Source: Candidatus Woesearchaeota archaeon (GTDB taxonomy: Archaea; Nanobdellota; Nanobdellia; Woesearchaeales; GW2011-AR9). From it: DNA of 35,661 nucleotides. Position numbers and translations under genes: made by a program. The notes below the pieces were generated by a model. That model made no database searches, was not told the origin of the DNA, and saw only the letters and a program-made list of their open reading frames with translations. The stretch spans positions 1 to 35,661 of the forward strand of contig JACPND010000028.1 of the NCBI GenBank assembly GCA_016185625.1, written 5' to 3'. This document shows positions 14,489 to 30,320 of this stretch, one piece after another (position 1 is the first letter of the stretch; each line of letters begins with the position of its first letter).

Positions 14489-15136
14489 TCACGGTCGCAT
14501 CCACTTGATTTCATAATACGTGACATCTCCTTCGTCATCGACAATGCCGATCAATAGCCTTTTCTTGGTTGAATGTGCCACCCGATTCTTGGCCGCGAAT
14601 TCATACCAGGTTAAGGTCTCGCCTTCATGCACCGGATAGACAATCCAGCGGGCATGATCCTCTCCTGGCTTCACGCCTCGGTCATAGACGCGGAAATCCG
14701 CGCCAAATTTCAAAGCTGTTTTGATGATGTACCCGCGATTGCGCATGTCCCTGAATACACAATACCGGATCCAGAAATTCGGCTCCGCTTTCCTGGCTTT
14801 CTTCAAATACATTTCAAATGCCAGCACTTTGCCCGATTCGCTTTCAATCTGTAATCGCCCTTTCTCCATCAAATACAGCGCTTCCAGCAGGGACAATTCC
14901 ACCTTCCCAGATCCGGACAAGTTTCCAAAGCGTGATTGGTTATAAAATTCGCGGGCGTCGTCAGACGATTCGGTGATGACCTTCTCTCCACCCAGAATAG
15001 CTCGCACTAACTTTTTTGGCTTTTTTTCTCCATTCTCTTCTGCTTTAGGTTCTTCTAGTTTAGGTTCGTCTAACTTTAATTCCTCTACAGAAGTCTCAGC
15101 CACTGCTGCTTCTTTAGAGGCCTTTTTCTTGGCCAT
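14489..15136 (-). CDS. endA: tRNA-splicing endonuclease EndA
   Basis: It cuts bulge-helix-bulge motifs in pre-tRNA. Residues 1 to about 45 are a charged Lys/Glu/Ala tail unusual for the family. The N-terminal domain is at about 46-110 and the catalytic domain at about 120-215. The catalytic triad is Tyr151 (FRVYDRG), His161 (DHARWIVYP) and Lys191 or 192 (AHSTKKRLL). The C-terminus GDVTYYEIKWMRP is canonical. It carries a single catalytic unit, so it resembles homotetrameric enzymes, though a second subunit could lie elsewhere. Three double-intron tRNAs in this window are its likely substrates. A TATA lies at 15157-15167 (minus strand). Confidence 0.95.
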   Translation of the reverse strand: MAKKKASKEAAVAETSVEELKLDEPKLEEPKAEENGEKKPKKLVRAILGGEKVITESSDDAREFYNQSRFGNLSGSGKVELSLLEALYLMEKGRLQIESESGKVLAFEMYLKKARKAEPNFWIRYCVFRDMRNRGYIIKTALKFGADFRVYDRGVKPGEDHARWIVYPVHEGETLTWYEFAAKNRVAHSTKKRLLIGIVDDEGDVTYYEIKWMRP

Positions 15137-28642: not shown

Positions 28643-28658
28643 CAAAATTTTATAAATC
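28643..28658 (+). promoter_or_regulatory. promoter of tRNA-Tyr
   Basis: The sequence caaaattttataaatc provides a TATA centred about 27 nt before the tRNA 5' end (28680), so the transcript may start at or near the mature end. Confidence 0.6.
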
Positions 28659-28679: not shown

Positions 28680-28829
28680 CCCCTCTTAGTTCAGCGGCCA
28701 GAACACTCGGCTGTAGCAGTGGTGTGACAATCGTCTTAGCGACGTCTGGATGAAACACGATCAGCTTGTGGTCACCGAGGAATCCCCGGTTCGAACTCAA
28801 AGGACAGTATGAAAATCCGGGAGAGGGGA
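28680..28829 (+). tRNA. tRNA-Tyr (GTA) with two introns
   Basis: Acceptor stem CCCCTCT/AGAGGGG (C1-G72 as in archaeal tRNA-Tyr), D-stem GTTC/GAAC, anticodon stem CTCGG/CCGAG, T-stem CCCGG/CCGGG, discriminator A. Anticodon GTA is at 28713-28715. Intron 1 at 28717-28773 (57 nt) is the usual 37/38 type. Intron 2 at 28796-28815 (20 nt) lies in the T-loop between positions 59 and 60. TTCG (54-57) pairs with intron TGAA, leaving bulges AAC and AAT, each cut after its second base. A T-run at 28830-28835 follows as terminator. CCA is not encoded. Confidence 0.93.
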
Positions 28830-28835
28830 TTTTTT
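28830..28835 (+). terminator. T-run terminator of tRNA-Tyr
   Basis: Six T residues directly after the discriminator base; T-runs alone suffice for archaeal termination. Confidence 0.5.
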
Positions 28836-28888
28836 ATCTGTTTCTCTCTTTCAGAACCTTTATTAAATGGTTAAGCTGTGCTTAGGCC

Positions 28889-29194
28889 ATGACGGAATTA
28901 TATCCCCTTAATGATCTTCAGAGACTGGGTGCAGGAAAAGGAACGTGTCTGGAAATATATCTGCTGGCTGGCGCTGTGCAGGAGGAGACAGAGTACTATA
29001 CAGAATACAAAGCTCCTGAGGGAACAGAACCGAAGAAATCATATTCTCTCCTTGGTTACGTTGTTGCTTTCGATGCAGATTTTTTGGAGATCTCTCAGGG
29101 CTGGAACCATGACCAGGAAGTACGAAGCGGTGACCGTATCCGCGTTTACAGAAGTGCTATCTATGACTGCCGGATTTTAACAGAACAAAAGTAA
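28889..29194 (+). CDS. hypothetical protein, 101 aa
   Basis: A soluble, Tyr- and acid-rich protein (MTELYPLNDLQRLGAGKGTC, later FLEISQGWNHDQEVRSGDRIRVYRS). I recognise no family; its predicted beta-rich C-terminus might be a small barrel. TATA ctttattaaatgg at 28858-28870 lies 19-31 nt ahead of the ATG. A second overlapping plus-strand frame is a shadow. Confidence 0.55.
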   Translation: MTELYPLNDLQRLGAGKGTCLEIYLLAGAVQEETEYYTEYKAPEGTEPKKSYSLLGYVVAFDADFLEISQGWNHDQEVRSGDRIRVYRSAIYDCRILTEQK

Positions 29195-29242
29195 TACGCA
29201 ATGGCGGCTTACTGTTTTTTTTATGCCCTAATCATCTGGTTC

Positions 29243-29653
29243 TTAAATTCGCAGATACCACTGTCGGAGATAGCACATGAGTCCAACATCCCCGTTGATT
29301 CTCGTGAGCATTCCTACTTTTTTTCCATTATAACATGCCACGATTGCTGGTACGGCGATTTCTTGCTTTCCAAAAGAACTCCACAGAGATGGATTGTCAG
29401 AGGAGATATACGCGCCCTGTACGTTCTGCCTTTGAAGGAACTGTTGTATTTCATCCGTTGCTAAACGGCTGTCCAGATCAAGGCAGTCCGGAGAATCGTT
29501 GACAAACACCACCAAATGCTTCCCCTGCTGCAGTGCAGCCGGAAGTGTTTCGGCGTGAGTATCGATACTTTCGGTACTGAGTACCGGAAACGCCCTTAAT
29601 TTATGATGTGGTGCTTGCGGTGTTGGTGGTTGTACCGGCGCAGAGTATACCAT
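29243..29653 (-). CDS. thioredoxin-fold-like protein
   Basis: A 136-aa protein from ATG 29653. After a Pro-rich start it reads KHLVVFVNDSPDCLDLDSRL and then FGKQEIAVPAIVACYNGKKVGML, which looks like a thioredoxin-type fold: strand, helix, then a cis-Pro VPAIV and GKKVG. There is no CxxC (CLDLD instead), so redox activity is doubtful. A longer frame to 29731 is possible, but TTTAAATG-type TATA at 29676-29685 (minus strand) places the start at 29653. It might be a UAS/thioredoxin-like binding protein. Confidence 0.6.
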   Translation of the reverse strand: MVYSAPVQPPTPQAPHHKLRAFPVLSTESIDTHAETLPAALQQGKHLVVFVNDSPDCLDLDSRLATDEIQQFLQRQNVQGAYISSDNPSLWSSFGKQEIAVPAIVACYNGKKVGMLTRINGDVGLMCYLRQWYLRI

Positions 29654-29767
29654 AATGAGTAAATAGAATATATACTCATTTAAAAATATTCTGAATTTAT
29701 GATACAGGAAGAAGAGTGTCAGCAAAAACAATCATCTTTTCATTTGCCGGCACAATCCAAAACACAA

Positions 29768-29787
29768 AGTGAAGAAACTACTTCACT
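29768..29787. repeat. hairpin AGTGAAG/CTTCACT
   Basis: A perfect 7-bp inverted repeat with loop AAACTA. On the minus strand it is followed by a T-rich stretch, so it could terminate a transcript coming from the structured element at 29822-29955. Confidence 0.4.
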
Positions 29788-29795
29788 GGTGCACA

Positions 29796-29815
29796 GATGA
29801 GGTCGTTGCCTCATC
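29796..29815. repeat. hairpin GATGAGG/CCTCATC
   Basis: A perfect 7-bp inverted repeat with loop TCGTTG, directly beside the large hairpin at 29822-29955. Confidence 0.4.
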
Positions 29816-29821
29816 TTGTGA

Positions 29822-29955
29822 GTGAGTGATGTGCCGCAGTTCGGGTGGATTAATCGTAGTGATTTCGCAGCATCTCGCTGCGTTTATAGTGCTAATCCAA
29901 CCTCCGAACAGCATTATACTTTCTCCCTCACTGCACTCCTTGGCACATCACTCAC
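29822..29955 (-). ncRNA. candidate structured RNA or inverted-repeat element
   Basis: A 134-nt region closed by a perfect 14-bp inverted repeat, GTGAGTGATGTGCC (29822-29835) with GGCACATCACTCAC (29942-29955). Nested inside are GTTCGG (839-844)/CCGAAC (904-909), TGGATTA (846-852)/TAATCCA (893-899) and CGCAGC (866-871)/GCTGCG (877-882), numbers offset by 29000. There is no ORF of note. The minus strand is preferred because a TATA-like TTTATAAA at about 29977-29984 is 22-29 nt ahead of the outer arm; the same box also drives the tRNA on the plus strand. It matches no 5S, SRP or RNase P core that I can see. A MITE-like relic is the main alternative. Confidence 0.5.
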
Positions 29956-29969
29956 AAACGGCCATTTGC

Positions 29970-29988
29970 CGAAAGCTTTATAAATAAA
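29970..29988 (+). promoter_or_regulatory. strong promoter of the tRNA-Asp/tRNA-Lys/rpoH cluster
   Basis: The sequence cgaaagctttataaataaa has the same BRE/TATA core as the tuf and rpl7ae promoters. Expected start is near 30008, leaving about 55 nt of leader before tRNA-Asp. The leader contains GGGCAT (30015-30020), which could pair with ATGCCC at the tRNA 5' end (30062-30067). Confidence 0.65.
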
Positions 29989-30063
29989 CCCCTGTTTTAA
30001 AGCCAAACATGGCCGGGCATTTTCTCTACAGCGTTGTTTTGCAGTAGAAGATGCTACGTCTAT

Positions 30064-30175
30064 GCCCTGGTAGTGTAGCGGCCTAGCATGGAGCCCTGTC
30101 GTCGACAAGGCAGCAAGGCTCCGACCCGGGTTCAAAATGCTCAAAAGAGGGGCTATGAGACTCCCGGCCAGGGCG
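30064..30175 (+). tRNA. tRNA-Asp (GTC) with two introns
   Basis: Acceptor GCCCTGG/CCAGGGC, anticodon stem GAGCC/GGCTC, T-stem CCGGG/CCCGG, discriminator G. Anticodon GTC is at 30098-30100. Intron 1 at 30102-30115 (14 nt, 37/38): CTGT (32-35) pairs with GCAG, leaving bulges CGT and CAA, a textbook bulge-helix-bulge. Intron 2 at 30137-30161 (25 nt, 59/60 in the T-loop): TTCA (54-57) pairs with TGAG, bulges AAA and ACT. The D-stem is weak (GTGT/GCAT). CCA is not encoded. Only 17 nt separate it from tRNA-Lys, so the two are probably one transcript. Confidence 0.93.
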
Positions 30176-30192
30176 TCCCTTTCGGGGGAAAT

Positions 30193-30320
30193 GGGCCGGT
30201 AGCTCAGCTTGGTAGAGCGCTTGACTTTTAGACAAGCGAGGATATCAAGCGGTCGCGGGTTCAAAAGCAGGTAACCTATGCTGAAAGATAGGTTGCTATA
30301 TGAAAGTCCCGTCCGGCCCG
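30193..30320 (+). tRNA. tRNA-Lys (TTT) with two introns
   Basis: Acceptor GGGCCGG/CCGGCCC, D-arm GCTC/GAGC, anticodon stem CTTGA/TCAAG, T-stem GCGGG/CCCGT, discriminator G. Anticodon TTT is at 30227-30229. Intron 1 at 30231-30243 (13 nt, 37/38): CTTT pairs with GAGG, bulges TAG and ATA. Intron 2 at 30266-30306 (41 nt, 59/60): TTCA pairs with TGAA, bulges AAA and AGT; it carries an internal AACCTAT/ATAGGTT hairpin. The mature sequence is an ordinary archaeal tRNA-Lys. It ends 12 nt before the rpoH start. Confidence 0.94.

Follow-up and report, generated by a model that had tools for sequence, protein, structure and literature searches.

Position 59/60, in the T-loop, is listed among the known noncanonical tRNA intron sites of archaea in PMC4090602 and PMC8450103, which also cite Sugahara 2008 and Fujishima 2010 for large-scale tRNA intron transposition in Thermoproteales. 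With respect to the tRNA-splicing endonuclease EndA, the α4 and α2 types are described as cleaving canonical bulge-helix-bulge (BHB) motifs only (PMC4033280), and noncanonical introns are described as accompanying the (αβ)2 or ε2 types and their loops (PMC12397907). Within the literature searched, beyond which papers may exist, no report of tRNA introns in Woesearchaeota or Woesearchaeales was found. This study analysed a stretch of 35,661 nucleotides (hereafter the window) from a Candidatus Woesearchaeota archaeon (contig JACPND010000028.1 of GCA_016185625.1, an assembly of 1.16 Mb in 46 contigs that is rated 100% complete). Three of its tRNA genes carry T-loop inserts that are, with high probability, archaeal 59/60 tRNA introns, removed by the EndA encoded in the window, rejoined by RtcB, and partly inherited and partly spread between genes.

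The three genes lie on the forward strand, namely, I) tRNA-Tyr(GTA) at 28680..28828, with a 57-nt intron at position 37/38 (28717..28773) and a 20-nt T-loop intron at 59/60 (28796..28815); II) tRNA-Asp(GTC) at 30064..30174, with introns of 14 nt at 37/38 (30102..30115) and 25 nt at 59/60 (30137..30161); and III) tRNA-Lys(TTT) at 30193..30319, immediately 5' of the genes for RNA polymerase, with introns of 13 nt at 37/38 (30231..30243) and 41 nt at 59/60 (30266..30306). TATA-like sequences are present on the same strand ~22-31 nt 5' of tRNA-Tyr (28649..28658) and 5' of the tRNA-Asp/tRNA-Lys pair (29977..29985). The initial annotation had described two inserts per tRNA, T-loop inserts of 20, 25, and 41 nt, and a common 3' end ATGARAN followed by T60, all of which was borne out: the T-loop inserts lie between A59 and T60 and end in ATGAAAA, ATGAGAC, and ATGAAAG, and complete cloverleafs with all exon stems paired are obtained once both inserts are taken out. 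In the unspliced window, ARAGORN and Rfam, the latter also at a lax threshold, detected no tRNA, i.e., standard tRNA finders saw none of the three genes. From the doubly spliced sequences, to which the discriminator and CCA had been appended, ARAGORN called Tyr(gta), Asp(gtc), and Lys(ttt). R1, a covariance model derived from the tRNAs of this set, scored Tyr at 48.2 bits over its full length, Asp at 42.4 bits, and Lys at 75.1 bits. The exact cut point of the inserts can shift by one base, because of runs of A. Since standard finders missed all three tRNAs here, the tRNA counts and quality grades of similar metagenome-assembled genomes (MAGs) are likely underestimated.

Two further elements of this region were observed. 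The 37/38 intron of tRNA-Tyr (28717-28773) is conserved across Woesearchaeota and contains a k-turn-like, covarying helix of 6 bp around UGA...GAUGA; it is possibly a guide RNA that binds L7Ae. An intergenic inverted repeat or structured RNA at 29805-29965, with the long stem TTGTGAGTGAGTGATGTGCC...GGCACATCACTCACAA and a z-score of -6.0, has no Rfam match.

If the T-loop inserts are spliced via a BHB, four bases close to the intron 3' end are expected to be complementary to bases 54-57 of the T-loop, and this prediction was assessed on 108 distinct T-arms. Overall, 93.5% of the cells were paired; the C56-G pair was invariant, and base 57 formed A-U in 52 T-arms, G-C in 30, G-U in 6, and other combinations in 20. 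None of 500 shuffles reached the covariation observed at base 57, the pairing was lost when the partner was slid by 1-3 bases, and an earlier test on the first 79 T-arms had given a Fisher p of 3.5e-8. This covariation of the YGAA intron end with base 57 indicates that splicing of the T-loop introns through the bulge-helix-bulge is under selection, although the absence of the fourth pair (base 57) from 20 of the 108 rows counts against this explanation. It also bears on the possibility that the insert is retained as an expanded T-loop or is trimmed by another nuclease without religation: the YGAA partner changes in concert with base 57, in register with a BHB, the inserts range from 12 to 106 nt, a freedom of length that a T-loop with D-loop contacts could hardly tolerate, and orthologs without an insert have a normal T-loop, so that we consider it very unlikely. 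The same lengths are too short for self-splicing group I introns, which are known from Woesearchaeota rRNA (PMC6125680); with no Rfam group I match in addition, the probability of that origin is close to nil, and the insert size excludes it.

The inner part of the motif is less regular. The 4-bp central helix described in the initial annotation is present in all three window tRNAs, and of the poor inner helices claimed for Tyr and Lys that of Tyr was confirmed (one adjacent pair), whereas Lys has no adjacent pair but a long helix beyond a 3x3 internal loop; Asp has two adjacent pairs. Among 136 T-loop motifs, the strict hBHBh' form (two bulges of 3 nt, with the inner helix adjoining the bulge) was found in 27, compared to ~14 expected from shuffled interiors, and a nearby inner helix of three or more pairs, set off by a few bases, in 117, compared to 83 in shuffles. 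In most T-loop motifs, some bases separate the inner helix from the bulge, and 27 strict motifs out of 136 count against the preferred explanation, since the only EndA found is of the type reported to cleave canonical BHBs only.

In the mechanism that we propose, the invariant T-loop UUCRAA would serve as the exon half of the bulge-helix-bulge, with the T-stem as outer helix, bases 54-57 paired to YGAA near the intron 3' end, and A58-A59^i1 and N-N^U60 as the 5' and 3' bulges. EndA of the window would excise the 59/60 insert from the precursor, in vivo as we infer, and RtcB would rejoin the exons. The intron would only have to supply the YGAARR end; the exon half is the same in every tRNA, which would make the intron portable between genes and would explain the repeated use of position 59/60. 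The fixed site thus suggests a simple rule of spread, by which an intron that ends in YGAARR can enter any tRNA. Transcription in archaea can do without an intact B box, and an interruption of the T-loop is therefore tolerated. The order of splicing and the way in which the introns move are likewise inferences.

Relatives of the window were collected via its RpoB' protein, for which the search returned 80 named loci, nearly all from MAGs of Woesearchaeota or Nanoarchaeota, with 80% identity at best. This places the window in a Woesearchaeota MAG (DPANN), in line with the earlier impression of a lineage other than Thermoproteota. A finder that demands acceptor, D, anticodon, and T stems detected 118 tRNAs in the 80 loci, of which 73 carried a T-loop insert. 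In the control, reversed and Markov-shuffled versions of the relatives' DNA, equal in size, yielded no hit, compared to 121 in the real sequences. Where the variable loop is unusual, some of the anticodons assigned automatically (for example, CAG/CAA with v=6 in the relatives) are probably register errors for Gly-GCC, which leaves the T-loop counts unaffected. The order tRNA-Asp, tRNA-Lys, RNA polymerase genes is conserved, and near rpoB' of the related MAGs a T-loop intron is carried by 36 of the 45 genes for Asp, 14 of the 21 for Tyr, and 14 of the 29 for Lys. Syntenic orthologs with an intact T-loop match the spliced window tRNAs with up to 97% (Lys), 95% (Asp), and 88% (Tyr) identity, which confirms the exons deduced here, and the interspersion of intron-bearing and intron-free orthologs points to frequent gain or loss.

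Beyond this locus, Asp-type 3' halves interrupted at 59/60 were found in 29 genomes of the same order, which represent 13 families, and in G146, a genome from another order of the class. A stricter general T-loop signature gave 37 matches in the own order, compared to 15 in the reversed control (18 genomes). Across 84 genomes from elsewhere in the class, the general signature stayed at background level (18 matches, 18 in the control), and outside the own order only individually parsed genes were therefore accepted; true 59/60 cases parsed in this way belong to families f20 (G025), f29 (G046/G057), f9 (G079/G146), and f26 (G087).

For the genome of the window itself, tRNA genes were located by combining an Rfam scan, R1, the T-loop signature, and parsed stretches; R1 scored 150 of the 296 genome candidates, and the tRNA list is therefore partial. 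At least 17 of the 32 tRNA genes located carry a 59/60 intron, namely, Tyr, Asp, Lys, Val-TAC, Val-GAC, two Met-CAT, Gly-CCC, Gly-TCC, Gly-GCC, Cys, Ile-TAT, four Arg (TCG, TCT, CCT, and GCG), and Pro-CGG, and in Ile-TAT the motif is a strict BHB. When extended to the genome, the "three out of three" of the initial annotation is thus overstated: about half of the located tRNAs have a T-loop intron. Introns at 37/38 occur in ~20 and D-loop introns in 5 of the located genes, and Leu-TAG appears to be the only uninterrupted gene among the 32. Further introns were seen at loci L139, L146, L147, L009, L017, and L141, in the D-loop of Ala-CGC, Arg-CCT, Pro-CGG, Pro-GGG, and Leu-CAA, and in the anticodon stem of Arg-TCT at ~28/29. 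Arg-CCT apparently has three introns.

The census also addresses the possibility that the three window genes are decaying pseudogenes or misassembled loci, with intact functional tRNAs elsewhere. The data come from a single MAG assembly; yet no further copy of the Tyr, Asp, or Lys gene that is intact, including one with a single intron, was found in the genome by R1 (150 of 296 candidates scored), the Rfam scan, which readily detects tRNAs with an intact T-loop, or the Asp search. Moreover, dozens of independent MAGs have the same inserts at the syntenic position, all exon stems are still paired, and base 57 covaries, which makes pseudogenes or misassembly extremely improbable.

The initial annotation had left a choice between systematic invasion and a common origin, and both hold. 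On the one hand, the Asp introns at one syntenic locus are related across genera, with GGTTG...CAATC in L024, L031, and L038-L040. On the other hand, intron sequence is common to different tRNAs: when the 17 T-loop introns of the genome are compared with one another, 26 of the 136 pairs reach p<=0.0034 for similarity, compared to 0.46 by expectation; the T-loop introns of Met, Gly-CCC, and Cys contain a 20-nt identical run, with GCAAGTAACCTATGCAAGTT exact in all three; and that of Lys has GCAGGTAACCTATGC, one base off its counterparts in Gly-CCC, Met, and Cys elsewhere in the genome. In G146, adjacent Asp and Lys genes have a near-identical 32-nt intron (L172). Such sharing between unrelated tRNAs of one genome argues that introns were copied between tRNAs. 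Purely ancestral introns, each inherited with its own tRNA and similar by convergence on a good BHB hairpin, would account for the Asp introns related across genera, but hardly for the identical run and the common hairpin (see below) in Met, Gly-CCC, and Cys, the Asp/Lys introns of G146, or the interspersed intron-free orthologs, and we consider this explanation unlikely. The comparisons support T-loop introns that were partly inherited, with gain and loss, and partly spread within Woesearchaeota genomes.

The hairpin common to the Met, Gly-CCC, and Cys 59/60 introns has the form UCAAG-[stem]-CGA, shows compensatory changes at 6 of 7 pairs, and has no match in Rfam. All four copies in this genome (G000:C2:376-415, C3:11858-11890, C11:3881-3914, and C25:17522-17546) lie within tRNA introns, one at 37/38 (Val-CAC) and three at 59/60. 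In other Woesearchaeales, most non-coding copies are located inside or within ~200 nt of tRNA genes (L177, L188, L192, L194, and others), and in one genome the hairpin forms tandem arrays. Two further loci deserve mention as observations. In L053 (4334-4357, reverse strand), the 59/60 intron of a tRNA-Asp contains the hairpin in reverse orientation, a hint that it was inserted as DNA, and in L189 (G090) the hairpin, next to a tRNA, is flanked on either side by a duplicated 22-nt piece of the tRNA 3' end.

Regarding the processing machinery, the window encodes a METJA-like (α4-like) EndA of 215 aa on the reverse strand (14489..15136), with N and C domains (Pfam PF01974 and PF02778), which is the single significant PF01974 gene in the genome; an RtcB ligase gene is present as well. 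A second, weak EndA match, L022 (PF01974, 13 bits, E 0.1), was judged to be due to chance. The closest solved fold is 1a79 (METJA, TMt 0.94), the identity to the M. jannaschii homotetramer is 38%, and the catalytic triad Y151/H161/K192 is invariant. The crenarchaeal loop insertion, which is linked to broad specificity, is absent, with a 10-residue deletion at that site relative to the S. tokodaii EndA (2cv8), and is likewise absent from all 29 class relatives compared. A Lys/Glu-rich N-terminal tail of ~40 residues, modelled with low confidence, is present in several but not all relatives. The window EndA is presumed to cut both the 37/38 and the 59/60 introns, and an enzyme that accepts relaxed motifs, as proposed in the initial annotation, fits the sequences. 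Either METJA-like EndA would then be broader in specificity than thought, or a partner would be missing. We give roughly even chances to a more far-reaching interpretation, in which a METJA-type homotetrameric EndA without specificity loop processes relaxed T-loop BHBs in Woesearchaeota, breaks the coupling between EndA type and noncanonical introns, and has let a 59/60 intron family, some members with the tRNA-associated hairpin, spread via the invariant T-loop as a universal landing site. An entire order that has a METJA-like EndA and is rich in noncanonical introns would make the model of EndA-intron coevolution directly testable.

Among the described systems, the Thermoproteales (Pyrobaculum and relatives) resemble this genome in having noncanonical BHB introns that include position 59/60, several per tRNA and related across tRNAs of one genome; the density is comparable, with ~44 introns in 32 located tRNAs here (partial census) and 71 in 46 in P. 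calidifontis. They differ in that the host here is a DPANN archaeon with a 1.16-Mb genome in which 59/60 is the dominant noncanonical site, and in that a single METJA-like EndA without the crenarchaeal loop takes the place of (αβ)2. ARMAN (Micrarchaeota), also DPANN-type archaea of small size, likewise have tRNA introns at uncommon sites, but their ε2 EndA is a three-unit ε fusion with an ARMAN-specific loop (PMC12397907), whereas the EndA here is a short single unit. Nst1, from related nanoarchaeal archaea, also has a tRNA-Tyr intron and a catalytic EndA for which no β subunit was detected, but two tRNA introns in all, and Nanoarchaeum equitans differs by its split tRNAs and (αβ)2 enzyme; proliferation of T-loop introns is described for neither (PMC3655853). 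The α4 EndA of Methanocaldococcus jannaschii (1a79) agrees with that of the window in size, domain order, catalytic triad, and fold, and differs in that the latter has the ~40-residue Lys/Glu-rich N-terminal tail and a predicted range of substrates that includes relaxed T-loop BHBs. Archaeal BHB introns, the 59/60 site, and intron transposition were thus already known, and what appears to be new, as judged from the literature searched, is the occurrence of T-loop BHB introns in the Woesearchaeota lineage.
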